A stretch of 41,738 bases of DNA, from assembly GCA_029865385.1 (NCBI GenBank), contig JAOUGX010000022.1, positions 1 through 41,738 of the forward strand. Reading direction: 5' to 3'. Positions 2,690 through 25,724 of this stretch are shown here, in pieces. Each line of letters opens with the position of its first letter. The first letter of the stretch is position 1. Origin of the DNA: Gammaproteobacteria bacterium. GTDB taxonomy: Bacteria; Pseudomonadota; Gammaproteobacteria; Steroidobacterales; Woeseiaceae. Position numbers and translations under genes: made by a program. Under the pieces are notes generated by a model that saw nothing but the letters and a program-made list of their open reading frames with translations, was not told where the DNA came from and ran no database searches.

Positions 2690-3253
2690 TCAAAGCAGTC
2701 GGAAGGGCGAATCCGGGCCGCCGCTGCCGCGCTTGCGGCGACGACGCATTCTGGACTGCAAGGCCTGACGCCGGCTTTCCAGCCAATTGTCGCGTGTCAA
2801 ATCGCTGGTCTTGCTTTTTACGCCACGGTTCGGTTTGTTGGCGGCCCGGAACTCGCGGAAATCCTTGTAAGCGTCAATCTCGTGCTGCAGTTCGCGAACG
2901 ACCAGCTCGATCATGATCGCGTCATCCAGAAAGCCGAGTCCGGGGATATGGTCGGGAATCAAGTCTTCCGGCTCGCAAAAGTAGGCAAGCGCATTCATTA
3001 CGCGACTGGCGTCTTTATCGGGGAGGCGCCATTCATGGTCGACGAGCATTTCGATCATCAATTCGAGGGATTCAAAGCGCTCCTGGATAAAATGCGGAAC
3101 CTTGTTTTTGCCCGATGCGGCCTGGGCAAGCAAGTCACGGGCGCCGCCGACTATATCTTCGGGAGATAATCTCGCAGCAGACTTGCGAGCTTCTTGCATG
3201 ATCAGCCGAAAATGCCTCAGATCATCTTCATGGAGTTCGAACGAAACGCGCAT
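2690..3253 (-). CDS. DUF1232 (YkvA-like) domain protein
   Basis: A 187-residue soluble protein. The central segment (about 85-125) contains YFCEPEDLIPDHIPGLGFLD, which matches the conserved core of DUF1232/YkvA proteins (xxPxDLIPDxIPxxGxxDD). This family has no established biochemical role. The N-terminal half is helical and charged; the C-terminus is very basic (RMRRRRKRG), possibly a nucleic-acid or membrane contact (inference). The ATG at 3253 was chosen because the frame opens there; no strong ribosome binding site is seen. It is not evidently in an operon with the next gene, 106 bp upstream. Confidence 0.75.
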   Translation of the reverse strand: MRVSFELHEDDLRHFRLIMQEARKSAARLSPEDIVGGARDLLAQAASGKNKVPHFIQERFESLELMIEMLVDHEWRLPDKDASRVMNALAYFCEPEDLIPDHIPGLGFLDDAIMIELVVRELQHEIDAYKDFREFRAANKPNRGVKSKTSDLTRDNWLESRRQALQSRMRRRRKRGSGGPDSPFRLL

Positions 3254-3359
3254 TTTGCAGTTGTAGCCTGGAATGGCAAAAAAGGCAGACTAAAGCGGGC
3301 CGCAGCGAAGTTCAATGCAGATGGGGGCATGGCATTATTGCGGTGGCGATGCCGGGATC

Positions 3360-3719
3360 CTACTTGCGCGTTCTGGAACTCCAGGATTGCGATCGGTCAA
3401 AACGACCGGTGTTGTACGGATCAATTCCGAACTCCTCTTCGGATTCCAGCAACGAATCGTCAAGGATCTTCAAGGTATCGTGAGTGCCAGTATCCTCTCG
3501 GACCATACGGTTGCGAATCAGAACGTTCTTGCCAGGACCACCGTCCTCGATCTCGCCCGTAACAGCTGCATCGAACTGCACCGGCGCCGGCGCCGGGGGA
3601 GGAGGTCGCGATGGAGCCCTGGACGGCATGACCCGCCGGCCGGTCTGATGCAGCGACTTGTCGGCGGCCGGTTTTCTGCCAAACAGCTTGTAGCCGAGCC
3701 ATTGCAGAAAGCGGTTCAT
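3360..3719 (-). CDS. Hypothetical proline-rich protein (119 aa)
   Basis: No family recognised. The start at 3719 (MNRFLQWLGYKLFGR) is preferred over an upstream ATG at 3791 because AGGAA lies 7 bases before it. The N-terminus is short, amphipathic and basic, followed by a low-complexity Pro/Ala-rich stretch (about 35-48) and an acidic C-terminal half (KILDDSLLESEEEFGIDPYN). It may be membrane-associated through its first 15 residues (inference). No catalytic motif is visible. Confidence 0.55.
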   Translation of the reverse strand: MNRFLQWLGYKLFGRKPAADKSLHQTGRRVMPSRAPSRPPPPAPAPVQFDAAVTGEIEDGGPGKNVLIRNRMVREDTGTHDTLKILDDSLLESEEEFGIDPYNTGRFDRSQSWSSRTRK

Positions 3720-3874
3720 CGTATATTCCTGTCTGTCATTGTTGCTGCTATCAACGGTTGGCCCACTATAGTCCGGTTTGCACGGGAGCATGCATCACCC
3801 TTAACATAATTTCTACAGTTTAGCCCTTAAGGCACTGTTGAATATAGTATTTCTGTGAACCAAGTCACATATTC

Positions 3875-3902
3875 GCTAGCCGGGACAGCAGGCCCGGCTA
3901 GC
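3875..3902 (-). terminator. Perfect hairpin overlapping the stop codon of the next gene
   Basis: Positions 3875-3884 (GCTAGCCGGG) and 3893-3902 (CCCGGCTAGC) form a perfect 10-bp inverted repeat with an 8-base loop. The right arm includes the stop codon (3898-3900) of the minus-strand gene that ends here. No T-run follows on the minus strand, so an intrinsic terminator is only one option; an mRNA 3'-end stabiliser is another. Confidence 0.45.
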
Positions 3903-4200
3903 GGTGCTCGGAGCTGCGGCGGCGCATATTCAGAAAAGCCCAGACGGTCAAGCGCAGTAGTTGCCAGCACAGGTACGGGGATAGAACGAGGTACCAGGCA
4001 ACCGGTTGCCACGATCTAAGCTCATAGTGGAGCCGCGAATAGAAATCAGCGAAACCGTTGCCGCCATACGCGCCGAAAAACCCCTGTCCGACGAGGTAAA
4101 TCATGACAGGCAATATCACGATCCCTGTCAGGAACAGCCCGAGGAATAAGGCAAACTCGTTTCGTAACGCAATTCGGGCGGGGCTCGGGGAGTCAGACAT
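3898..4200 (-). CDS. Small hypothetical inner-membrane protein (100 aa)
   Basis: No family recognised. The frame opens at 4263, but MSDSPSPARIALRNE at 4200 is the more natural start: a short polar N-terminus then a helix. Two membrane helices are likely, at about 15-38 (FALFLGLFLTGIVILPVMIY) and 66-88, with a basic C-terminal tail (NMRRRSSEHR) predicted to be cytoplasmic. It lies 92 bp downstream of another small two-helix protein on the same strand; the two may be co-transcribed. Its 3' end overlaps a perfect hairpin. Confidence 0.55.
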   Translation of the reverse strand: MSDSPSPARIALRNEFALFLGLFLTGIVILPVMIYLVGQGFFGAYGGNGFADFYSRLHYELRSWQPVAWYLVLSPYLCWQLLRLTVWAFLNMRRRSSEHR

Positions 4201-4292
4201 GGGCGATCGATTCGTGGCAAACGGCACGCAATCGTTGTCTATGGCGCCTGCGAGGTCAAGCAATGCCGATCGCGGCCAAGGTCAAATTGGAG

Positions 4293-4607
4293 TCAGGTGG
4301 ACTCCTGGCCTACGTCTGTCAATGACGATTGATTGCCCCTGCTTTTCCGCCTGCGGCGGTAGACGAAAAACGCGAGGTGCAGGCACGCTGCGGAGAACAG
4401 CAGATAATGCGGCAGTATCCACAGCCAGTGACTGATATAGAGGGTAGCCAGTAATGCCCCGATGCCGGATATCAGGTAAAAAAGCGGGAGGCAATCGTAA
4501 AGCAGTTTTGGAAGCCAGATTTTGCGGGAGGCCAGTTTTCCCGCATTTTGCGACTTCTTCTCAGTCGCGCTCAATTCCATTTGTTCGGGGCTCGATCTGG
4601 AAAGCAT
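4293..4607 (-). CDS. Small hypothetical membrane protein (104 aa)
   Basis: No family recognised. A charged N-terminus (about 1-33) precedes two predicted membrane helices at about 35-57 and 60-83, then a very basic stop-transfer stretch (YRRRRKSRG) and a short polar tail. It resembles the next gene downstream only in general layout. The start at 4607 has a weak GGA upstream; Met10 (4580) is an alternative. It is 120 bp downstream of the FHA gene on the same strand. Confidence 0.5.
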   Translation of the reverse strand: MLSRSSPEQMELSATEKKSQNAGKLASRKIWLPKLLYDCLPLFYLISGIGALLATLYISHWLWILPHYLLFSAACLHLAFFVYRRRRKSRGNQSSLTDVGQEST

Positions 4608-4727: not shown

Positions 4728-6608
4728 CTATCGTTTGGCGCGTTCCTCGTATCGGAATTCCGCCGTGCCGATAGTCACAATGTCACCGTTTTCCAGCGTA
4801 TGTTCAGTGACTTTCTTCTTGTTGACGGCTATGCCGTTCTTACTGCCCCAGTCGACTATTCGAGTGTGTTCGTTCTCGGTGACAATCAGTGCGTGACGCC
4901 GACTGATGTATTGCGCCTTCAATTGAATGTCATTGTGTGTTGTCCGACCGATGGTGAGTCGGTCCTTGAACAGTGGAAAGCGCAATTCCTGACCGTCGAT
5001 ATCGCCGATCAACAGGCGCGTAATCCGGTCTGATGTTGATTTTTCGTCTGGTCGATCATCGACTCGTCCGGTCGCATCCGGGATGTTTCGAACTTCGATA
5101 TTACCCATACCATCTTGCTGCGTGTTTCGGCTGGTCAACTCGCTCAGGAGTGCGGCAATTGCGTTGTCCTTATTGGATATCTTGTGTTGATCTTCCGCCC
5201 GCAGGTGCTCGAGTCGTCTGACCTTCTGCCGAAGTTCGCGGATGGTCTTCGAGTACGATTCCTCGCTTCGTTCCAGTTGAGATTCCAGCGCCTGACGGAA
5301 ACTCTGATTGTCGATGAGATCCGAAGTCAGCTGCTCGTTAATCGATTCGCTCTCTGCGATGGTTTGTTGCGCCGCGCCAAGCTCAAAACGAATGTTTAAT
5401 ACTTCCTGATCGAATTCTTTTTTCAGGTTGTCGACATCGTTGCGCAAGTTCGCAGATTGCAATTTCTCGATTTCCAGCATTCCGGCTAAATCGTCGACCT
5501 TCTGCATTGCGTCGGCTAATGCGGTTTCAGTCTGTTCGAGGTTCCGGTCTGAATCTTCCCTGGCTTTGACCTGATCCTGAAGTTTGATTCGCAATGAGTC
5601 AGCATAGGCCTCTGTACGCGTGACCTGGGACTGCAGTTCACGAATTTGCTGCCGGTTATCAACCAGGATTCCCGTTTGCTCGGCCGAGAGCTCCGTATCG
5701 TCGCTTCCCAGATCGTGAGAGCCATCATTTGCACCGACTGGAGCGGTCGTTTCCCGGCGCATCTGTATCAGCGTGCTTTGCGTCTGGTCGAGCTGTTGTT
5801 GCGTGTTTTCCAACTCTGCAGATTTCTTTGAGATCAGTTCGTCCCTGTCCGCCAGCTCTACTGCCAGCTCGTCGAACCGGCGTTTCGATTCTTGCAACGC
5901 GGCATCAGTCTCCACTAACTGCTTGTCTTTGGACGCAAGTAAATCACCTGAAGCGTCGACGCGTCGGCGCAATGCCTCGATTTCTTCGGTGAGTTGAATT
6001 TGCTCATGCTGTAGATTCGAATGCTCAATTGCGGGAACCGTATCGGCCAGCTTTGACGACAGTGCGGCTATTTCCTTCAACGATTCGACTAAGCTTTCTT
6101 CAAGCTCGCTTATGCGTCGTTCGCGATCCGCTACTGAATCGCGAAGCGTCTCGGACAGTTTTTCGAACTCCGCGGCGGATTTCTCGTGCTGAGATACTTT
6201 GGCGAAGAGCGCGTCTACTTCGCTTTCGCGCGCAGCCAGCCCGCGTTTTGTTGCGGCGAGTTCATTGCGGGCTTGTCGCAGCTCTGAGTTGACATTGTCG
6301 GTAAGCTTTTCGCGAACCTTGATTTCTTTGTCGAGCCCATTCCACCGCGCCCGAAGTTGTTCAATGTCAAACTGCAACCGGTCGATGCTTTCGTCGCGAA
6401 GTCGAATCTGACGCCGAAGAAACGCAACGTCACCCGACGGCTCATCGGCTCTAATTTCATCGTAGTCACAGTCAAACGTCTTGGCGTCTGCTTCGAGTTC
6501 CTGATCCGGAAAATGTTCGCCACTGACGCGATCAAGCACTTCCAGTTCAGCTGTCGGATCGTCGTCGCTGGAGACTAAAGTCATGTTCTTTTTGTTCTTA
6601 TTAGTCAT
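4728..6608 (-). CDS. Long coiled-coil protein with C-terminal FHA domain
   Basis: A 626-residue soluble protein. Residues from about 60 to 500 are almost continuous heptad-rich coiled coil, rich in Glu, Gln, Arg and Leu. The last about 98 residues form a forkhead-associated (FHA) phosphothreonine-binding domain: GR at 554-555, SRRH at 569-572 and GSKNG at 588-592 are the conserved phosphopeptide-contact residues. It should therefore bind a phosphorylated partner and hold it on a long rod; the partner is unknown, and no Ser/Thr protein kinase of the Hanks type is seen nearby. The next gene upstream on the same strand, 92 bp away, is an AAA ATPase, so they may form an operon. The start is uncertain between 6608 and Met9 (6584). 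Confidence 0.85.
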   Translation of the reverse strand: MTNKNKKNMTLVSSDDDPTAELEVLDRVSGEHFPDQELEADAKTFDCDYDEIRADEPSGDVAFLRRQIRLRDESIDRLQFDIEQLRARWNGLDKEIKVREKLTDNVNSELRQARNELAATKRGLAARESEVDALFAKVSQHEKSAAEFEKLSETLRDSVADRERRISELEESLVESLKEIAALSSKLADTVPAIEHSNLQHEQIQLTEEIEALRRRVDASGDLLASKDKQLVETDAALQESKRRFDELAVELADRDELISKKSAELENTQQQLDQTQSTLIQMRRETTAPVGANDGSHDLGSDDTELSAEQTGILVDNRQQIRELQSQVTRTEAYADSLRIKLQDQVKAREDSDRNLEQTETALADAMQKVDDLAGMLEIEKLQSANLRNDVDNLKKEFDQEVLNIRFELGAAQQTIAESESINEQLTSDLIDNQSFRQALESQLERSEESYSKTIRELRQKVRRLEHLRAEDQHKISNKDNAIAALLSELTSRNTQQDGMGNIEVRNIPDATGRVDDRPDEKSTSDRITRLLIGDIDGQELRFPLFKDRLTIGRTTHNDIQLKAQYISRRHALIVTENEHTRIVDWGSKNGIAVNKKKVTEHTLENGDIVTIGTAEFRYEERAKR

Positions 6609-6700
6609 CCGCGGATTCTAGCATGCCCCTCGCAGAGACCACACGATACCGTATGTTCATCGGCCAGTACCCGAATTAAGTCAAATACTTGGGTCGGTTC

Positions 6701-8191
6701 TCAGTCGCACGCCACGGTGCGTCCTACTGCCCAACGGCGAATCGCATCGATTCGTTCGGCCATTACGACCGACAGTGGTTTCGTGCGCTTCAATTCTTCC
6801 AGCAAGTGATGTGTCTCCAGGTTGGACTGCTGAGCGTGGGCAGAGTACAAAGCCGACACGACGGCCTGCTCGATTTCGGCACCGGAAAAGCCGCGGGACG
6901 CGCGCACCAGTTGATCGCTTTCGAACCGACTTGGATCCTGACCCCGCAACTCCAGATGTATGTCGAAAATATCCTTGCGTATGGCGCTTCGCGGCAGGTC
7001 GACAAAAAAGATCTCATCGAATCGTCCTTTTCTGACCAGTTCCGGTGGTAACGACGCAATGTCGTTTGCCGTCGCTACCGTGAATACCGGGCTCTTCTTT
7101 TCCGCAAGCCAGGTGAGGAAAGTGCCGAGAACACGCTGTGAGGTGCCTGTTTCGCTGTCCTTGCCGGCAATACCTTTTTCGATTTCGTCGATCCAGAGCA
7201 CGCACGGTGCCATAACGTCGGCCGTCTTGAGCGATTCGCGAAGCTTACGTTCCGTTTCGCCATGGTACTTGTCGTACAAGCTGCCAAAGTCGAGGCGCAA
7301 GAGGGGCACGCCGAATATTCCGGCCGTTGCTTTTGCCGCGAGACTCTTGCCACAACCTTGTACGCCGATCAACAAAATCCCTTTCGGGCTATCGAGAATC
7401 GAGGATGCACTCCTGTCGAGGAACGCCGGCTTGCGCTGTGAAATCCAGGTCTTGAGTTTGTCAAGTCCGCCTACGTCGCTGAACTTCTTGGTGTCGTATT
7501 CGTACCGCAGAATTCCGCCTCGATTGAGCAACTCGTACTTAGCCTGCATTACCTGCGGAAGGTCGCTCTTCGAAATCGCCCCGTCTTCATAGATTGCGTT
7601 TCGCGCAAGCTGCGCGGTGTCCCTATCCGTCAGCCCTGCCAGATTCTGAATCAGCATGCGATGCGCCTTCGGGTCGAACTTGACCCTGGATCCGGCATTT
7701 TCGACGCTCCATTCGATAGCTACTCGCTTAACGATTTCTTCTCTTTCCTGCTCTGATGGGAGAGCCATGTCAAATCGCGCGCTGAAACTTTCCAATTCCT
7801 TGGGCAACGCGACCGAGTGGCTGATCAGAATGAGGTGCCGGGAAACAGAATCAAATTGTATGCAGATATCTTTCAGCAACCTGACGTTAACGGGATCCTC
7901 GAGGTAAGGATGAAAATCGAGCAACACGTACATGCCTGGTTTTGCGACGGCACGGATATGTCGCAATACTTCAGTCGGTTGCGCATTATGCATCTGGGGT
8001 TCAAGCGAGATGTCCAATCGTTGCAACCCGTCAGTGACTGTCCAGCGGAACAGCGGCACATAGCTGTCCGAGGCGCGCGAAATCGTAATGGACTTCAGGA
8101 GGTCGAGCATCCTCGATTCATCCCGGGTCTCAATCACTACGATGGGCATGCGTGATCGCAGGATCAGCTCAAGATCGCGTTGTCTGTCCAT
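6701..8191 (-). CDS. Ycf46-like AAA+ ATPase
   Basis: A 496-residue protein. The N-terminal part (about 1-150) looks like the degenerate P-loop-like domain of Ycf46-type AAA proteins, opening with a VIETRDESR segment and containing VLLDFHPYL. The AAA+ module spans about 235-490: Walker A GVQGCGKS (276-283), Walker B VLWIDEIE (331-338), sensor-1 TVATAND, and an arginine-finger region [10 protein letters not shown] (385-393). Ycf46 proteins are widespread in cyanobacteria and proteobacteria, but their substrate is not established. It lies just upstream of the FHA coiled-coil gene on the same strand, which suggests a functional pair (inference). The start at 8191 gives the expected N-terminus. 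Confidence 0.85.
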
Positions 8192-8249: not shown

Positions 8250-9581
8250 TCATTCCGGGCAACCCGGAAGATTCTTGGCGGCCAGCGCATCCGGCCGTCT
8301 CCCGATAAGTCTGGTGGCGATGTCACGCAATGAACCCAAACTGACTTTCTCGTCGCTGCTTGCCAGTGCGCGAGTGACGTCGTCAAGTGAGCTACCGTTT
8401 TTGGAGTGCTTACGTAGTTCGTTGTCCAGTGCTGCAAGTATCGATACAGACCTGGCGGTCCTTGCGCCGGATGAACGTGCCGCGCAGATCTTGCTGACAC
8501 TTTCGCCCCATTCGGCTTGCATGGCCAAAGCTCGCGTGTAGCGTGTTGCGCTGATCGTTCCGCTACGGGCGAGAAACTGAATGCTGTAATACTCCGCCAG
8601 GCCTTCAATGATCCAGTCGGCGTTTTGTGCCGCGCCTGGCCCGAATCCGACGTGAAAAACTTCGTGAAGCAAAGTGCTGGTGCCATTCTCACTTATCAAT
8701 GGTCTGTCGGAGTGAATATACAGTGATTTCGGCCCGGAAAGGCCGCCGCGCCACATGGGATCACCGGCACTCAGGACGGTCAGTCGTTGCGGAAATTCGG
8801 GCAGGATCACGAGCATTTCCGGCATTGTCCAATGCAAAAGTGCGAGTGTGTCCATGCGCCTGACGGACTGACCTTCCGGCCCTGCCACTTTCACACGAAC
8901 GCCCGAAATGGTGTCATTTCTGACGCCAATTTTTCCGAGCGCGATCCAGCCGCCGGGAAGATCAAATCGCCGCGCAGGATTATCGACTCGGTATTTGTGA
9001 TCCTGGCCGAAATAGGGCGTGACCGACGTCCAGCCCGTCGGAAGCTCGAAGCGTAACCACGTGTCGCTGCTTGTACCTTTTAAGGATCTTGACGTCGCCC
9101 GCGGAATAATGTCCTCCGCGCGAAAAAGAGCCCACTCTGAGTCGATATACGCATCGTAGCTGTCGTCGTCTCTGAGATGCCGGAGTGACGCAAACCAACG
9201 CAAGGAGCCGCCGGATCGCGCTGGCGACCATGTGACTGTTTCGCCTTCGATCTGCAACTGGCCGTCTCCGTGCACACTTCCGATTCGCTGCGGATCGATT
9301 TGCATTCTGATTTGTCGCAGCTGCCCACGCGATTGAGCCAGATTCATACTCACATGCGCCCCGGCGGCGGATCGGTCCGGGGTCACGACGAATTCGATCC
9401 GATACAGATTCCGGTTATCCGGGGACTCCGCACTTTCCGAACTGGAAACCCCGCAGCCTTGCAGGCCGCCGAAGGCAATTGCCGCAATTACGACGCCGGG
9501 GAACCAGCCGCCAAAAAACCGGTGCGAACGCAGTTTCGAGCTATCAAAACCGGGAAATTCCGTTTCCGGGATACAGTTCAT
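8250..9581 (-). CDS. Lipoprotein gluzincin metallopeptidase (M1/M61-like)
   Basis: The frame is open from 10091, but that part overlaps the NlpC/P60 gene; the start at 9581 gives a 443-residue protein with a clear lipoprotein signal ending GGLQGC. A GGAG lies 12 bases upstream. The N-terminal two thirds look like beta-rich domains as in M1/M61 peptidases. Residues 306-310 are HEVFH, the zinc-binding HEXXH, and EGLAEYYS (Glu326) supplies the third ligand, 15 residues after the second His. It is therefore likely an active zinc aminopeptidase or endopeptidase anchored in the envelope. It ends 58 bp upstream of the AAA gene on the same strand. Exact subfamily and substrate are unknown. Confidence 0.75.
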   Translation of the reverse strand: MNCIPETEFPGFDSSKLRSHRFFGGWFPGVVIAAIAFGGLQGCGVSSSESAESPDNRNLYRIEFVVTPDRSAAGAHVSMNLAQSRGQLRQIRMQIDPQRIGSVHGDGQLQIEGETVTWSPARSGGSLRWFASLRHLRDDDSYDAYIDSEWALFRAEDIIPRATSRSLKGTSSDTWLRFELPTGWTSVTPYFGQDHKYRVDNPARRFDLPGGWIALGKIGVRNDTISGVRVKVAGPEGQSVRRMDTLALLHWTMPEMLVILPEFPQRLTVLSAGDPMWRGGLSGPKSLYIHSDRPLISENGTSTLLHEVFHVGFGPGAAQNADWIIEGLAEYYSIQFLARSGTISATRYTRALAMQAEWGESVSKICAARSSGARTARSVSILAALDNELRKHSKNGSSLDDVTRALASSDEKVSLGSLRDIATRLIGRRPDALAAKNLPGCPE

Positions 9582-11834: not shown

Positions 11835-12833
11835 TCAGCCTCGCCATTCGAGTGGAGGTTCCTGCATGGCGGCCGCCTGTTCCCGCAATGTCAGTATGTG
11901 TTCGCCCCAGTAGTTCTCGGTGTTAAACCACGGAAAAGCAATGGGAAAAGCCGGATCCTGCCAGCGACGTGCGAGCCAGGCGGAGTAGTGCAGTATGCGC
12001 AGCGACCTCAACGCCTCGATCAGGTTCAGTTCGCGCGCATCGAACTGGCGGAATTCGCGGTAGCCCTCAAGCAATACGTCGAGTTGCGGCGTTTGCTCCT
12101 CTCGATTGCCGGAAAGGAACATCCACAGATCCTGCACCGAAGGTCCGCTGCGGGCGTCGTCGAGATCAACGATGTGTAATGCATCTCTCGCAACGAGAAC
12201 GTTGCCCGGATGAAAATCGCCGTGGAGCCGGATTTCGCGGTAGGTACCGCATCGCTCAAAACATGCGACGGCGCCTTCGCAAACCAGCGTGGTTATTGCC
12301 TCATAGGACGCGACCAGATCCGGCGGTATGAAGTCGTTGTCCAACAGGAAGTCTATTGACTCGTACCCGTAGCTCTCGATATCGATCGTCGGGCGATGCA
12401 GAAACTCTGCCGATTCACCGGCGAGGTGAATCCTGGCAATCAGTCGACCGAGCTGGCGTTGCAGGTCGGCATTGTCGAGATCGGGCGCACGTCCGCCGCG
12501 GCGCGGCGCGACCGCGATGCGAAACGGGCCGCAATGATGCAGCGTGTGTCCGTCGATAACGAGCGGCGCGACCACCGGGATATCATGGCTGGCAAGTTCG
12601 AGCGTAAACGCGTGTTCTTCAAGTATCGCGTCGTCGGTCCATCGGCCCGGGCGATAGAATTTTGCGACAACAGGCTCCTTGTCCTCGATGCCGATCTGGT
12701 AGACGCGATTCTCGTAGCTGTTCAATGCAAGGAAGCGCCCGTCACATCGAAATCCGAGGCCCTCCAGTGCGCCGAGAATGTCGTCCGGCTTCAGATCGCC
12801 GAAAGCCAGCGTAGATTCAAAGGAACCCTGCAT
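11835..12833 (-). CDS. srkA: Stress response kinase A (YihE/RdoA)
   Basis: A 332-residue choline-kinase-fold protein kinase. Lys58 (VAKFY) is the probable ATP lysine, HGDFHPGN (204-211) is the catalytic loop, and DLDDARSGP (223-231) supplies the metal-binding Asp. Length and motifs match E. coli SrkA/YihE, which counteracts the MazF toxin programme and modulates stress-induced death. It lies 12 bp downstream of typA on the same strand, which suggests co-transcription. The start at 12833 gives the usual N-terminus. Confidence 0.85.
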   Translation of the reverse strand: MQGSFESTLAFGDLKPDDILGALEGLGFRCDGRFLALNSYENRVYQIGIEDKEPVVAKFYRPGRWTDDAILEEHAFTLELASHDIPVVAPLVIDGHTLHHCGPFRIAVAPRRGGRAPDLDNADLQRQLGRLIARIHLAGESAEFLHRPTIDIESYGYESIDFLLDNDFIPPDLVASYEAITTLVCEGAVACFERCGTYREIRLHGDFHPGNVLVARDALHIVDLDDARSGPSVQDLWMFLSGNREEQTPQLDVLLEGYREFRQFDARELNLIEALRSLRILHYSAWLARRWQDPAFPIAFPWFNTENYWGEHILTLREQAAAMQEPPLEWRG

Positions 12834-19958: not shown

Positions 19959-20531
19959 AAACGTCAGTAATTCCCCCGGAAACACCCCCAGATCGATTTG
20001 CGTGATGCTATAGCTAATTTCAGACCAACGTTATCGTTTCTCTGGCACCCCAGCCAGGGCGTGCTCCTGGGGGCAGCACGTAAGAAGTGCCGTCGACTGG
20101 CCTGCCTAGGATCGAGAATCGACTCGGGGCGAGATGCCAAGTTTGAAATCGGTATTACTGATTCAGTCTACAGAGCTTCCGTGCGACCCTCGAATGGATA
20201 TTGTTCGGGGATATCCTGTCCATGCCCGATCGGGCGTGGTCATCGCGAAAAAAATGGCCTCGGTTTGCGCCGCCAAAGAGTTGGTCAGTTTGCGGACAGC
20301 CCGACCACGAACAGAGCCGGCAGCGGCCACATGCGCTGTAACGTCCATTGACTGAATGCCATCCGATATCGATGAGCAATAGAAAATGAGGTCATGATCA
20401 ATCCTGGCAGAGCCTATATTTCGTTCCCGACATCCTACCGCGCCGGCAGCTTTGACCTGCGATTGGCCCACGTACGTACTTTCCGATGGTCAATAAATCC
20501 GGCCCGCGACATTGCGGGGAGCCGACAGCCC

Positions 20532-20537
20532 TATAAT
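20532..20537 (+). promoter_or_regulatory. Perfect -10 box TATAAT before the TolB/TPR gene
   Basis: TATAAT lies 21 bases upstream of the ATG at 20559. No good -35 sits at 16-18 bases: TTGCGG at 20512 has a 14-base spacer. If it is used, the leader would be only about 15 nt. Confidence 0.35.
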
Positions 20538-20558
20538 AGGCTTACTGGCCAAGGCTGC

Positions 20559-22208
20559 ATGTCAATGAATAAGCGCTCGCCCGGCGACCTGTCGAAGCTC
20601 TCCTCAGAGTTGAAACGCCGCGGTGTATATCCGGTAATCGCAGCTTACGCCGTCGTTGGCTGGGTGTTATTGCAAATCGGCGAAGTAACGTTCAGCCCCC
20701 TGCATTTGCCTGATTGGGCGATGACCGCTCTGATAATCCTGGTTATAGCGGGTTTTCCGATTGTGTTTGCCCTTGCATGGTTTCTCGATCTTACGCGCGA
20801 GGGAATTCGAATTGACACTGGCCGGATGCGCGAAACGAAAGTGCCGGACGATCGGCCATCCATCGCAGTTCTGCCATTCCTAGATATGAGTCCCGACAAG
20901 GACCAGGGCTATTTTTGTGAAGGAGTGGCAGAAGAGATTCTCAATGCATTGACAAAAATCCCTGAGCTGCGCGTTGCCGCCCGGTCTTCTTCATTTCAAT
21001 TCAGGGATGGCGCTGGTGACGTACGTAAGATTGGCAAGGACCTCGGGGTAACGTCGATACTCGAAGGCAGCGTACGCAAAGCCGACAATCACCTGAGAGT
21101 GATTACTCAACTCGTCAATGTTTCCACTGGTTATCATTTCTGGTCAAAGAAATTTGACGAGGAGCTGAAAGGTATTTTCGAGATTCAGGATGAAATCGCA
21201 CGAAGCATAGTCGAGTCCCTGCTGGAAACGATAACGCCGGGCCAACAGGTTTTGGTCAGGACAACATCCAGCAAGGATGTCTCTGCATACGAATATTATT
21301 TGCGGGGCAGGCAGTTCATTAATCGCTTTCACAAGATGGATATCGAATATGCGCGACAGATGTTCAGACAAGCTATCCAACTCGATCCCGATTTTGCCCT
21401 GGCGTGGGCTGGCTATGCTGACTGCTACTCGTTACTGTTTATGTATGCAGATCCGATCGATAGTTACCGGTCGGAGGCACGCAACGCGAGCAACCGGGCA
21501 TTGGCAATCAGCCCGCATCTTGCGGAGGCGCATGCCTCGAAAGGACTCGCTCTCCTGACTGTGGAAGAGTTCGGGGAAGCGGAGGAAGAATTCAAAAAAG
21601 CGCTGGAGCTTAATTCCCGGCTTTTTCAGGCCTATTATTACTACGGTCGGGCCCGATTCCATCAGGGCGATCTCGACATGGCAGCGGAACTATTCAGGAA
21701 GGCCGCTGTAGTGGATACCGGGGACTACCAGTCTAGATGTCTGCGAGTGCAGATTCTCCGCGGTTCAGCACGCGTCGATGAGGCTGTGCGGCAGGCAAGG
21801 GAAGTGGTTCCAATGCTGGAAAGACACCTCAAGTGGAACCCTGACGATGCCCGTGCGCTGCATCTGGGCGCAGGATCTTTAATCGTATTAGGCGAAGTTG
21901 AAAGGGCGAAGCGCTGGTTGAGGCGAGCGCTGCAGATCGATCCCGATGATTCCGTGCTGTTGTACAACGTCGCTTGCAACTTCGCGACGTTGGGCGAGGT
22001 GGATGAGGCGCTTGATTATCTAACTCAGGCCATCGCAAACGGAATGGTCAGCGCGGCCTGGATGCGCAACGATACAGACCTCGACGCGTTGCGGACTCAT
22101 CCCGGGTATCTGGAACTCCTTCGACAGCTGGAGGAGAAAGACGAGCGCGCGCGTCTTCGCGTAATTAATTCGACCGCAGATGCAGGGACAGCGGCAACTT
22201 CACGTTAG
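20559..22208 (+). CDS. TolB-like/TPR membrane protein
   Basis: The frame opens at 20394, but the ATG at 20559 (MSMNKRSPGDL) has AAGG upstream and follows a perfect -10 box, giving 549 residues. Residues 1-30 are polar and probably cytoplasmic; two membrane helices follow at about 23-43 and 56-78. A TolB-like N-terminal domain (about 95-215) contains SIAVLPFLDMS and the EGVAEEILNALTKIPELRV segment, and then at least five TPR repeats reach to the C-terminus (about 235-540). This family occurs in many copies in some gammaproteobacteria, often as the sensing part of adenylate cyclase or CadC-like proteins; here no output domain is present. It converges on the pyruvate-kinase-like gene with a 4-base overlap (TTAG). 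Confidence 0.8.
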   Translation: MSMNKRSPGDLSKLSSELKRRGVYPVIAAYAVVGWVLLQIGEVTFSPLHLPDWAMTALIILVIAGFPIVFALAWFLDLTREGIRIDTGRMRETKVPDDRPSIAVLPFLDMSPDKDQGYFCEGVAEEILNALTKIPELRVAARSSSFQFRDGAGDVRKIGKDLGVTSILEGSVRKADNHLRVITQLVNVSTGYHFWSKKFDEELKGIFEIQDEIARSIVESLLETITPGQQVLVRTTSSKDVSAYEYYLRGRQFINRFHKMDIEYARQMFRQAIQLDPDFALAWAGYADCYSLLFMYADPIDSYRSEARNASNRALAISPHLAEAHASKGLALLTVEEFGEAEEEFKKALELNSRLFQAYYYYGRARFHQGDLDMAAELFRKAAVVDTGDYQSRCLRVQILRGSARVDEAVRQAREVVPMLERHLKWNPDDARALHLGAGSLIVLGEVERAKRWLRRALQIDPDDSVLLYNVACNFATLGEVDEALDYLTQAIANGMVSAAWMRNDTDLDALRTHPGYLELLRQLEEKDERARLRVINSTADAGTAATSR

Positions 22209-24136
22209 TATTTTGTCTGATCGGCGTTTGCCTGATCCCTGGCGCCGGATATGCTGAGTCGCCGCAGCCGCGCTGTCTTCTTGTATTGATGGTTCTGCAT
22301 CCTGCGAAGGATGTTGTCCAGCATCCTTATCGTGGCTAGAATGTGCGGTCCCTTGTTGAGCATCACGCAGTCGGCCCGCTGTGACATCGCCGCATCCGTA
22401 ATCTCGGCGCGTGACGGTTTTCCTTTCTTGGCTTTCTGCCGCAAGACGTCGGTTGCCCAGATCACCGGCATCTGGGCCGCCTCGCACAGCCAGAGTATTT
22501 CCTCCTGCAATTCCGCAAGACGCTCCCAGCCACACTCGACGGCCAGGTCCCCCCTGGCAATCATGACCGCGACGGGGTAGCTGCGCATCGTGGTTAGTAG
22601 CAGTTCGGGCAAGTTGTTGAAGCCTTCCTCGGTTTCGATCTTGATTATCAGACCCAGCTGCTTGTCCGCATGCTTTTTCAACTCGTCCTGCAGTAGCACG
22701 ATATCCGCCGGGGTCCTGACAAATGAAAGACAGACGGCGTCCGCATCGAGGGCAGCGAATTCGAGGTTGGACCGGTCGGAAGCGCTAAGGCCTGAAATCT
22801 GAATCTTGCTATGCGGAAAGCTGATGCCGCAATCGCCGCGCAAGCGGCTGCCGGTCGGTTTGGCATGAGTGATTTCAATCAGCAGCCTGTCGCTAGACGC
22901 TGTTCGTACGATACCGCCGATTTTTCCGTCGTTCAACCAGACAGGATCGCCTGCGCCGACGGTGTCGAATACCTCGTATTGCTGGCACGAGATGTGCGCT
23001 GGTTTGGAGATTTCACCATTGGCATCCTCAATTGCCGGCGCTCCCATTGTGTTGTCTCGATGCAAGACGAGCGTATCGCCGCTTCGTAACAGAATCGCTT
23101 GTTCGATGCTTGGAAGCTCACCTACGCGATACCTGAGTTTTTCTCCGGTTTCTTCGCGTATGAGCCGTAATTTCGTGCCGGTGACGATGTACGCTGCTTT
23201 ATAGCTCTCGACGATCAGCCCATCGGCATCCTTAGCTACTATCCGAAGAGTTCTTTTCTTGCCGCGTGCGTCCCTGAACCTGAGTTTGTCCCCCACGCCG
23301 GCAAATTCGATGCACTCCCGCGGTACGGGAACAATCGCCGATTTTTTTCCTTGCCACACGATATCGTCGGGGATGAATCGCAAGCGCCTCGGCGCGATGA
23401 CTCTTCCAAGAGGATCCCGCCGTGGCCTTACGTGGACAACCCGGGGACCAGGAAGCAAGGCGCCAGTCCGCAACTTCGGACCGGACAGGTCCAGTACGAT
23501 CCGGCATTCCTTGCCGGCCTTCCTGCTTCCTGCTCTTACGTTTCGGATCATTTCCGTCCAGACCGGCTGGGAATCGTGTGCGCAGTTGATTCGTGCGACA
23601 TTCATGCCGGTGGCGATCATGTCAGCGACCAGCAAGCTGTTACTGCCGGCGTCGGTCGGCAACGTAACCATGATGCTGACTTCACGATCGTTCCCGGAAT
23701 CGCCAAAAATTGCTTTCCGGTGCAACTGTGCGCTGGGATGTTTCAGGCGGAGATCCGGATCCACCTCGACTCGCTGGTTGCCCGTGTTACCGGCAATCTT
23801 TCTCAAGGCACGCTGCACCATGCGGATCGATGGCAGAACATTGCGCTCGGCTCGGCCCAGGGATGACAGGCCGAGGCTGGCGAGATTCTCCTGTAACTCG
23901 CGAATATCGTCATGGCGCAGAGCAAGGTAGTGCACGAGATTTCTGGCACTGTCGCGGAACTCGGCATTAACCGCGACCAGGTCTTCAGCATATTTTTGCT
24001 CGAAATAACTGGCCCGGTCACAGATTGCATGAAGCTGCGCGTCGATCCGGCTGATTTTTCCGATCTCGCTCACTTTTTCACTCCCGTAAGCCTTCTTGTA
24101 AAGCATTTTCGCGGCAGGCACAGCTATGGAATCCAC
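22205..24136 (-). CDS. Pyruvate-kinase-like protein with N-terminal extension
   Basis: A 643-residue protein. Residues 1-140 are a helical extension absent from ordinary pyruvate kinases. The kinase-like barrel then shows MNVARINCAHDS, DLSGPKLRTG, the catalytic-lysine segment IKIETEEGF and MIARGDLAVECG, so the metal and phosphate-transfer residues appear kept. Between GPKLRTG and ISGLSASDRSNLEF lie about 220 residues, roughly twice the normal B domain, with two B-like motifs (GDKLRFRDARGK and GDPVWLNDGKIGG). The allosteric C-domain is missing. A similar layout is known in plant and bacterial pyruvate-kinase-family proteins of unproven activity. Start is GTG 24136, or ATG 24106. It is divergent from a cytochrome c gene. 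Confidence 0.8.
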   Translation of the reverse strand: MDSIAVPAAKMLYKKAYGSEKVSEIGKISRIDAQLHAICDRASYFEQKYAEDLVAVNAEFRDSARNLVHYLALRHDDIRELQENLASLGLSSLGRAERNVLPSIRMVQRALRKIAGNTGNQRVEVDPDLRLKHPSAQLHRKAIFGDSGNDREVSIMVTLPTDAGSNSLLVADMIATGMNVARINCAHDSQPVWTEMIRNVRAGSRKAGKECRIVLDLSGPKLRTGALLPGPRVVHVRPRRDPLGRVIAPRRLRFIPDDIVWQGKKSAIVPVPRECIEFAGVGDKLRFRDARGKKRTLRIVAKDADGLIVESYKAAYIVTGTKLRLIREETGEKLRYRVGELPSIEQAILLRSGDTLVLHRDNTMGAPAIEDANGEISKPAHISCQQYEVFDTVGAGDPVWLNDGKIGGIVRTASSDRLLIEITHAKPTGSRLRGDCGISFPHSKIQISGLSASDRSNLEFAALDADAVCLSFVRTPADIVLLQDELKKHADKQLGLIIKIETEEGFNNLPELLLTTMRSYPVAVMIARGDLAVECGWERLAELQEEILWLCEAAQMPVIWATDVLRQKAKKGKPSRAEITDAAMSQRADCVMLNKGPHILATIRMLDNILRRMQNHQYKKTARLRRLSISGARDQANADQTKY

Positions 24137-25363: not shown

Positions 25364-25724
25364 TGGTGGAGGCGGCGGGAATCGAACCCGCGTCCGCAAG
25401 CCCTACGCCCAGAGATCTACATGCTTATTCCGTCTTTAATCTCGCCACAAGCTACCCGACGGGCAGGGAAGACCTGTGGCCAGTTCAGTAAGGATTTAGT
25501 GGATCAGGCCCTGAACATGCCCTCACCACGGTCCTGTGTGGGTGACCCCAGGGATCCGGACGCACAGGCACGATCCGGGCTGAGGGCTCTGAGCTGGTTA
25601 TTAAGCAGCTAGTGCGTAGTTGTCGTCGTTGGCAACTATAGTTTTACAGCTGGATTTACGAGGTGATCTGTTCCTCGGCATGCACCCGGAGTTTCGTGAC
25701 CCACGTCGAAGCCATGTCGCCCCC
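25364..25724 (-). ncRNA. ssrA: Transfer-messenger RNA (tmRNA)
   Basis: The 361-nt RNA has the tmRNA hallmarks. The 5' end GGGGGCGACATGGCTTCGAC and 3' end pair as a 7-bp acceptor stem (GGGGGCG with CGCCTCC, one G-U), followed by A and an encoded CCA at 25364-25366. A T-arm is visible (GGGTTCGATTCCC-type, seen on the plus strand as GGGAATCGAACCC). The tag frame at 25601-25633 encodes ANDDNYALAA and a TAA stop, with GCC as resume codon. With SmpB it rescues ribosomes stalled on broken mRNA and tags the product for degradation. It is a single-piece (not permuted) gene. smpB lies 525 bp away. Confidence 0.97.

Follow-up and report, generated by a model that had tools for sequence, protein, structure and literature searches.

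GarA, OdhI and DgcB have been described as FHA proteins that recognise their own tails, and the residue at +3 from the phosphothreonine (pThr) as a determinant of FHA ligand specificity (both in the available part of PMC6733907). In GarA, the phosphorylatable 17-mer peptide holds the motif ETTSVF (PMC8546545, in the part available). Here, we analysed 41,738 nucleotides of a Gammaproteobacteria bacterium of the Woeseiaceae (assembly GCA_029865385.1, contig JAOUGX010000022.1, positions 1 to 41,738; this whole stretch is called the window), which encodes a long coiled-coil protein with a C-terminal FHA domain, referred to as the FHA rod protein, next to a tandem AAA ATPase. Both genes lie on the minus strand and start with ATG in the list of open reading frames; the AAA gene is upstream and the rod gene follows 92 bp downstream. 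An earlier reading of the letters alone, the sequence-only reading, had described a 626-residue coiled-coil/FHA protein adjoining an AAA ATPase on the same strand, and the coordinates, the Pfam matches to FHA and AAA and an AlphaFold2 model all agree with it. We propose, with about an even chance of being right, that the FHA protein is a kinase-gated rod that would recognise its own kind, either in trans or by folding back. The observed basis consists of a conserved tail motif or motifs in an acidic setting, a conserved pThr reader, a coiled coil that is free in length, and the availability of kinases. We found no publication on this rod protein in the open-licence literature. The parts of the protein are as follows.

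4728..6608, minus strand: FHA rod protein, 626 residues, with a disordered tail, coiled-coil rod, linker and C-terminal FHA domain (open reading frame, Pfam FHA, AlphaFold2 model)
6534..6566, minus strand: tail motif 1, residues 15-25 DDDPTAELEVL, with candidate phosphosite T19 at 6552-6554 and a hydrophobic residue at +3 (alignment)
6468..6494, minus strand: tail motif 2, residues 39-47, with T44 at 6477-6479 (alignment)
5121..6428, minus strand: coiled-coil rod, residues 61-496, with breaks near 188-194 and 288-306 (AlphaFold2, period of 3.5)
4731..5027, minus strand: FHA domain, residues 528-626 (Pfam, conservation, structural matches)

To describe conservation, we used 37 rods, namely that of the window and those of 36 of the 40 fetched family loci, the remaining four loci being rod-less; the genomes G033, G041 and G060 stand outside this set. 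The FHA domain matched PF00498 at 63.6 bits (residues 552-614). Among the pThr-binding residues, R555 was present in all 37 rods, and S569, R570, H572 and N591 were each present in 36; the set includes one rod with a broken FHA domain (G035). The top fold match was PknB-bound GarA, and further GarA entries and OdhI were also near the top, OdhI within the first ten; the structure of DgcB in complex with its phosphorylated tail ranked 26th. By sequence, the nearest solved structure was the Synechocystis FHA protein Slr1951, followed by GarA entries, with OdhI and DgcB lower. The domain also matched Yop-YscD_cpl (PF16697, residues 538-620) at 54.3 bits (cut-off 33.2), below its FHA score. In YscD-like inner-ring proteins of type III secretion systems, this domain is N-terminal, and a membrane helix and periplasmic ring domains come after it. 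We rejected an inner-ring layout because the domain of the rod protein is C-terminal, behind a coiled coil.

The tail was predicted to be disordered, with AlphaFold2 confidence (predicted local distance difference test, pLDDT) of 35-43. Eight of the 61 tail columns (residues 2-62) reached at least 80% conservation, T19 and T44 among them. T19, in the setting LVxxDDDPTxELE, was Thr in 34 of the 37 rods, and the form T-x-x-[LIVMF] was found there in 33. T44, in the setting E-x-D-x-x-T-(F/Y)-D, was Thr in 33 rods, with T-x-x-[LIVMF] in 24 and Phe at +3 in 18. Every one of the 37 rods had T-x-x-[LIVMF] at T19 or T44, and 20 had it at both. T-x-x-hydrophobic is a common FHA ligand form, and because chance occurrences are frequent in tails, the argument rests on the conserved place and setting of the motif and not on its presence. 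A DNA pattern for DDPTxEL found a single site in the genome, which was the rod tail.

The tail motif was also observed outside the family. An order-wide profile search gave matches in 31 of 97 genomes, many through the FHA domain alone, and led to rods in other families, whose tails included EDDPTDELPIL (L196), DDEPTAELPVL (L199), HDEDTDQLPVL (L189) and DPESTAELPVL (L198); the tail of L108, one of the named contigs, has DDDPTDELPIL. The best 9-mer common to seven tails scored 194, compared with 104.7 ± 6.7 after shuffling, and none of 300 shuffles was as good, while a control taken from the middle of the rods was at chance (134/300). The seven tails were picked after reading, one per lineage except for f156 (L195 and L196). 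The result was still 0/300 when the motif-less L191 was added, which offsets this choice only partly, or when only the six loci of conserved context were used. The FHA proteins outside the test were L191, L192, L193, L194, L197 and L200, together with the same-family L187, L188 and L190. Of these, L191 is a rod, the FHA protein of L200 is short, and L192, L193, L194 and L197 resemble ATPase-FHA proteins. The four loci of one family, L187-L190, add the tail motifs TGTHIF and TTVF, the latter in (E/R)(Q/R)TTVFHP; they have at least three Thr motifs, the last being TTVFHP(D/E)Q, and their TTVF resembles the ETTSVF of GarA.

Between tail and FHA domain, the model, built from 31 of the 37 rods (L054, L069, L073, L080, L081 and L082 were excluded; conservation counts use all 37), predicted helices at residues 61-187, 195-287 and 307-496, a disordered tail (1-60) and linker, and a confident FHA domain. 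A hydrophobic period of 3.5 gave a peak in each helix, and that of the first helix alone (15.6) exceeded the largest of 200 whole-rod shuffles (11.8). The aligned rod proteins ranged from 369 to 840 residues in length, and the commonest residue of a column had a mean share of 34% in the rod, compared with 44% for the tail and 75% for the FHA domain. Relationship of the rod to crescentin, SMC or JetC was rejected: the model matches were coiled-coil matches, and those that have a cut-off fell below it. The rod gene is broken by a frame change or a stop in L082 (G035) and L182 (G041), and the AAA gene of G035 is broken too; assembly error and decay look alike here.

Candidate kinases were found in the window and elsewhere in the genome. 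The genome contains 12 Pkinase (Hanks) matches, all on contigs other than that of the window, so that the sequence-only reading, which saw no Hanks kinase in view, was right for the whole contig. It overlooked, however, a non-Hanks Ser/Thr kinase at 11835-12833, which scored 465 bits with NF008738/PRK11768 (cut-off 194). This kinase, whose family also goes by the name SrkA/YihE, lies beside TypA in a conserved gene block and is a possible link of the locus to stress signalling. Across the 61 family genomes, Hanks kinases (E <= 1e-10) were found in 57, and every rod-bearing genome had at least three. The nine g4 genomes, which are small and rod-less, had 0-2. The neighbouring genes of the block in the window are these.

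11835..12833, minus strand: Ser/Thr protein kinase of the PRK11768 family, non-Hanks, within the conserved gene block (NF008738, synteny)
8250..9542, minus strand: Peptidase_M61-like protein, a frequent upstream neighbour (PF05299 at 24.0 bits, cut-off 22; synteny)
2690..4607, minus strand: conserved downstream neighbours, comprising small proteins of 104 and 101 residues, a 143-residue protein and a DUF1232 protein (library matches, synteny)

In the proposed mechanism, T19 and/or T44 would be phosphorylated by a Ser/Thr kinase, either the SrkA-type enzyme of the block or one of the genome's 12 Hanks kinases, and the phosphorylated tail would dock on the FHA domain of the same kind of protein. 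Given the long coiled coil between tail and FHA domain, docking would have one of two outcomes: rods linked in trans, each to the next, or a single rod closed by bending back at its breaks. Whichever state the rod adopts would constitute the output of the signal. The AAA protein is, in all likelihood, a separate and older remodelling ATPase encoded at the same locus; it may act on the rod or its partners and would not be needed for the rod. A more specific form of the mechanism is a phospho-gated filament, in which each rod would insert its N-terminal pThr residues into the C-terminal FHA domain of its neighbour, so that head-to-tail assembly would be driven by a kinase and, where the p97-like AAA ATPase is present, undone by it. 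Rod length would then set the lattice spacing, which would explain variable length between fixed ends. A p97-like remodeller beside an assembling rod is an attractive idea, yet each gene can be lost alone, and we consider the filament improbable as stated.

Several observations weigh against self-recognition by the rod. The modelled tail was undocked as well as disordered, by a method that cannot represent a phosphate, and T19 lies ~510 residues from the start of the FHA domain, whereas known self-peptide FHA proteins have the tail close by. The motifs are not universal: T19 was absent in three of the 37 rods and T44 in four, the window's rod has Cys at +3 from T44, and the 38th rod, that of G033, has lost both tail motifs together with the front of the rod and most of the AAA gene while keeping its FHA domain. 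Outside the family, L195 had a weak form of the motif, NEPDTDDIDAM, and L191 had none. Since the genome encodes 10 FHA domains, another FHA protein could read the rod tail. Loss of the rod in four family genomes indicates that it is dispensable, and these four AAA-only genomes carry 8-16 Hanks kinases, so that, among large genomes, presence of the rod is not tied to the number of kinases.

The 10 FHA domains and 12 Hanks kinases of the genome would also suit an arrangement in which the tail is a phospho-tag for another FHA protein and the rod, as a scaffold between two partners, uses its own FHA domain to recognise either an autophosphorylated kinase or some third protein. A precedent is PknG, which recruits GarA/OdhI through its own phosphosites (PMC8546545, in the part available). 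Several families of the order, however, have the tail motif and a C-terminal FHA domain combined in a single protein, and a self-match explains this more simply. We regard the scaffold as possible but rather unlikely.

Alternatively, the tail could be a recognition tag for the AAA protein or another non-FHA partner, with Thr kept for direct contact and not for phosphorylation. The conservation of LVxxDDDPTxELE beyond the Thr itself points in this direction, as does G033, where the AAA gene and the tail motifs were lost together. On the other hand, the form of the motif is that of a common FHA ligand, with the +3 residue as determinant (PMC6733907, in the part available), and loci in which the AAA gene is absent or a remnant keep the motif, namely G008, G027 and the syntenic, AAA-less locus of G285 (L196). 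The retention of the tail motif in the rods of G008, G027 and G285 after AAA loss speaks against a docking tag for that AAA protein. With the weak motif form of L195 (G249), which also has no AAA gene, three cases stand against the AAA tag, one fits it (G033) and one is unclear (L195). We consider it doubtful that the tail is such a tag.

The sequence-only reading had treated the two genes as a pair to be followed across genomes. In the family, they lie in a block with the order TypA, kinase, two small genes, NlpC/P60 (opposite strand), M61-like, AAA, FHA rod, small genes, DUF1232 and tail-specific protease, from which single genes are missing here and there. The AAA and rod genes were neighbours in 35 of the 61 family genomes, and two more pairs were split or cut by contig ends. 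Both frames were whole in 33 of the 35 neighbour pairs, the exceptions being G036, whose AAA gene is cut by a contig end, and G035, in which both genes are broken. Four genomes had the AAA gene without a rod and with no room for one (G006, which is a single-contig genome, G007, G038 and G049), and three had the rod with at most an AAA remnant (G008, G027 and G033; loci L086, L087 and L179, respectively). In G033, the M61-like and NlpC/P60 genes also had no match. Contig ends cut the locus in four genomes (G005, G013, G041 and G060), and neither gene was found in 15; because many family genomes are incomplete, some of these absences may be gaps. Counted by presence, 37 genomes had both genes, three the rod only, four the AAA gene only and 15 neither (G005 and G013 left out), giving a Fisher p of 6e-8, in which the genomes are related to one another.

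In a class-wide sample, 25 of 143 genomes had the AAA gene (E <= 1e-60) and one, the window's own, had the rod (E <= 1e-15); the rod was not found in any of the 24 sampled AAA carriers outside the family, where some AAA matches were distant (30-41% identity) and where, at no more than eight rod candidates scored per genome, divergent rods could be missed. AAA-rod neighbours occurred at six loci outside the family (L108, L187, L188, L189, L190, which is the same as L109, and L199). Among 80 named loci, those with a rod after the AAA gene were the family loci, L108 and L109. No rod followed it in the 56 more distant loci, although three of these, L142, L126 and L112, end within 900 bases of the AAA gene and cannot be judged. 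The open reading frame downstream of the AAA gene in L111 was not a rod, and the 10 neighbours of the AAA gene at five loci in other Gammaproteobacteria included no common partner. Since the AAA gene is more widespread than the rod, it is probably the older gene, with the rod as its neighbour in this order. Conservation of the pair, which the sequence-only reading had proposed as a check, holds as adjacency within the family; an obligate FHA-AAA pair was rejected, since neither gene needs the other. Failure of the two genes to co-occur in relatives, the observation by which that reading would have been refuted, was found outside the order and not within the family.

The features of the AAA ATPase in the window are listed below.

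6701..8191, minus strand: tandem AAA ATPase, 496 residues, with a degenerate first module (about 1-233) and a second module with the catalytic motifs (about 234-496) (open reading frame, Pfam, fold match)
7343..7366, minus strand: Walker A, residues 276-283 GVQGCGKS, in the second AAA module (alignment)
7184..7201, minus strand: Walker B, residues 331-336 VLWIDE (invariant in 27 aligned sequences)

Pfam AAA matched residues 272-398 only, at 106.9 bits; the first module lacked both a Pfam AAA match and a P-loop recognisable by eye. Two modules were modelled from an alignment of 27 chosen AAA sequences (AlphaFold2), with catalytic motifs in the second only. The model fitted p97 over residues 1-492 (Z 26.2, root-mean-square deviation 5.0, 452 residues aligned, 19% identity), and Cdc48 and Drg1 matched too. 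Invariant residues in the 27 sequences were G276, Q278, G279, G281, K282, S283, D335, E336, the sensor 1 residue N376, R387 and R390. The label Ycf46-like is that of the sequence-only reading and is kept here purely as a label; for Ycf46 itself, PMC12172450 (in the part available) cites a 2015 paper on CO2 utilisation in Synechocystis. Identification of the AAA protein as the phage-defence ATPase IetA, or by NCBIfam IteA (67.8 bits, cut-off 510), was rejected because the matches span the AAA module only. The 19 named loci with 70-81% AAA identity comprised 10 labelled Woeseiaceae or Woeseia and nine under the broader names Gammaproteobacteria, Proteobacteria or Chromatiales, all of them metagenome-assembled.

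Phosphorylation of the AAA partner, which the sequence-only reading had taken the FHA domain to imply, was sought through Ser and Thr that accompany the rod and are missing where it is missing. No Ser or Thr of the AAA protein conserved in at least 60% of 34 rod-bearing family members tracked the rod when compared with the four rod-less members and 55 outsiders (named loci with a rod, L095, L153, L110, L111 and G035 were dropped before the count). One outsider, L098, in fact belongs to the family, its contig ending so that the rod is lost, and the following counts use 54 outsiders. In rod-bearing members, rod-less members and outsiders, Thr was present at T192 in 34/34, 3/4 and 8/54, at T289 in 31/34, 4/4 and 3/54, and at T348 in 34/34, 4/4 and 1/54. 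Because the rod-less members keep these residues, they are marks of the family and not of the rod. The part of the earlier claim that placed the kinase outside the window is consistent with the 12 Hanks kinases on other contigs, but its choice of the AAA protein as the phosphorylated partner is unsupported. That the FHA domain reads pThr on the neighbouring AAA protein, the two forming an obligate pair, is very doubtful: adjacency in the family and at the six outside loci, the associated presence of the genes in related genomes, T192 (in T-A-Q-L) and the joint loss of the AAA gene and rod tail in G033 favour it, but T192 and T289 lie within predicted helices and are still Thr in rod-less members, each gene is kept without the other, and the tail motif is a simpler ligand.

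Among the downstream neighbours, the 143-residue protein was considered as a ligand of the FHA domain, because its C-terminal tail, REDTGTHETLKI ... DPYNTGxFDRS, holds T-x-x-hydrophobic sites, one of which is missing in the rod-less G006. The rod-bearing G009, G002, G020, G047, G055 and G001 also lack that site, which shows no link to the rod, and the candidate was rejected. A small family protein at 3360-3719 (minus strand) has a strikingly conserved C-terminal tail, REDTGTHETLKILDDS...GIDPYNTGxFDRSxxW, behind a proline-rich stretch; in the 143-genome class sample it was limited to its own genome and one marginal match, with faint profile matches in sister loci. Elsewhere, the window contains a transfer-messenger RNA gene at 25364-25724 (minus strand; tag peptide ANDDNYALAA), a 604-residue TPR protein at 20394-22208 (plus strand) with weak similarity to CadC/HilA-type regulators and a TPR end-of-group domain, and a 643-residue long pyruvate kinase of the PRK14725 family at 22205-24136 (minus strand; 698.7 bits, cut-off 642).

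If the FHA domain binds its own tail, the protein would be a kinase-controlled rod that assembles with itself or closes on itself, with sticky ends on a spacer of free length, in a family that has many Hanks kinases and is represented here mainly by metagenomes. As for the ATPase, tandem modules are common to it and to Ycf46 and the type II AAA proteins p97, Cdc48 and Drg1, with the first module degenerate here. The resemblance of the rod to mammalian TIFA, in which the FHA domain of one dimer is proposed to bind the N-terminal pThr of another in trans, giving head-to-tail oligomers (PMC7083832, in the part available), is an analogy of mechanism only, as TIFA is a small animal protein (184 residues in mouse) with ALPK1 as kinase and TRAF6 as partner. 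Bdellovibrio DgcB is similar in that its FHA domain binds its own phosphorylated N-terminal tail with +3 specificity (PMC6733907, in the part available); its FHA domain, however, is near the N-terminus and is followed by GGDEF, with no long rod and no C-terminal FHA domain. The actinobacterial FHA regulators GarA and OdhI, with their ETTSVF-type tail, resemble the rod protein in that a single polypeptide holds both an FHA domain and an N-terminal tail with a T-x-x-hydrophobic site; they are also the top fold matches of the rod's FHA domain and among its best sequence matches. Their tail, in contrast, adjoins the FHA domain, docks in cis and regulates the binding of other proteins, whereas the ends of the rod are split by a coiled coil of 400-plus residues. 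Of the features of self-peptide FHA proteins, the rod shares an FHA domain with the pThr-binding residues and a tail predicted to be disordered, with its conserved T-x-x-hydrophobic motif (except in G033), and departs from them in the distance between the two. A long rod between tail and FHA domain would be a new layout, given that GarA, OdhI and DgcB, the self-peptide FHA proteins from bacteria considered here, are compact.

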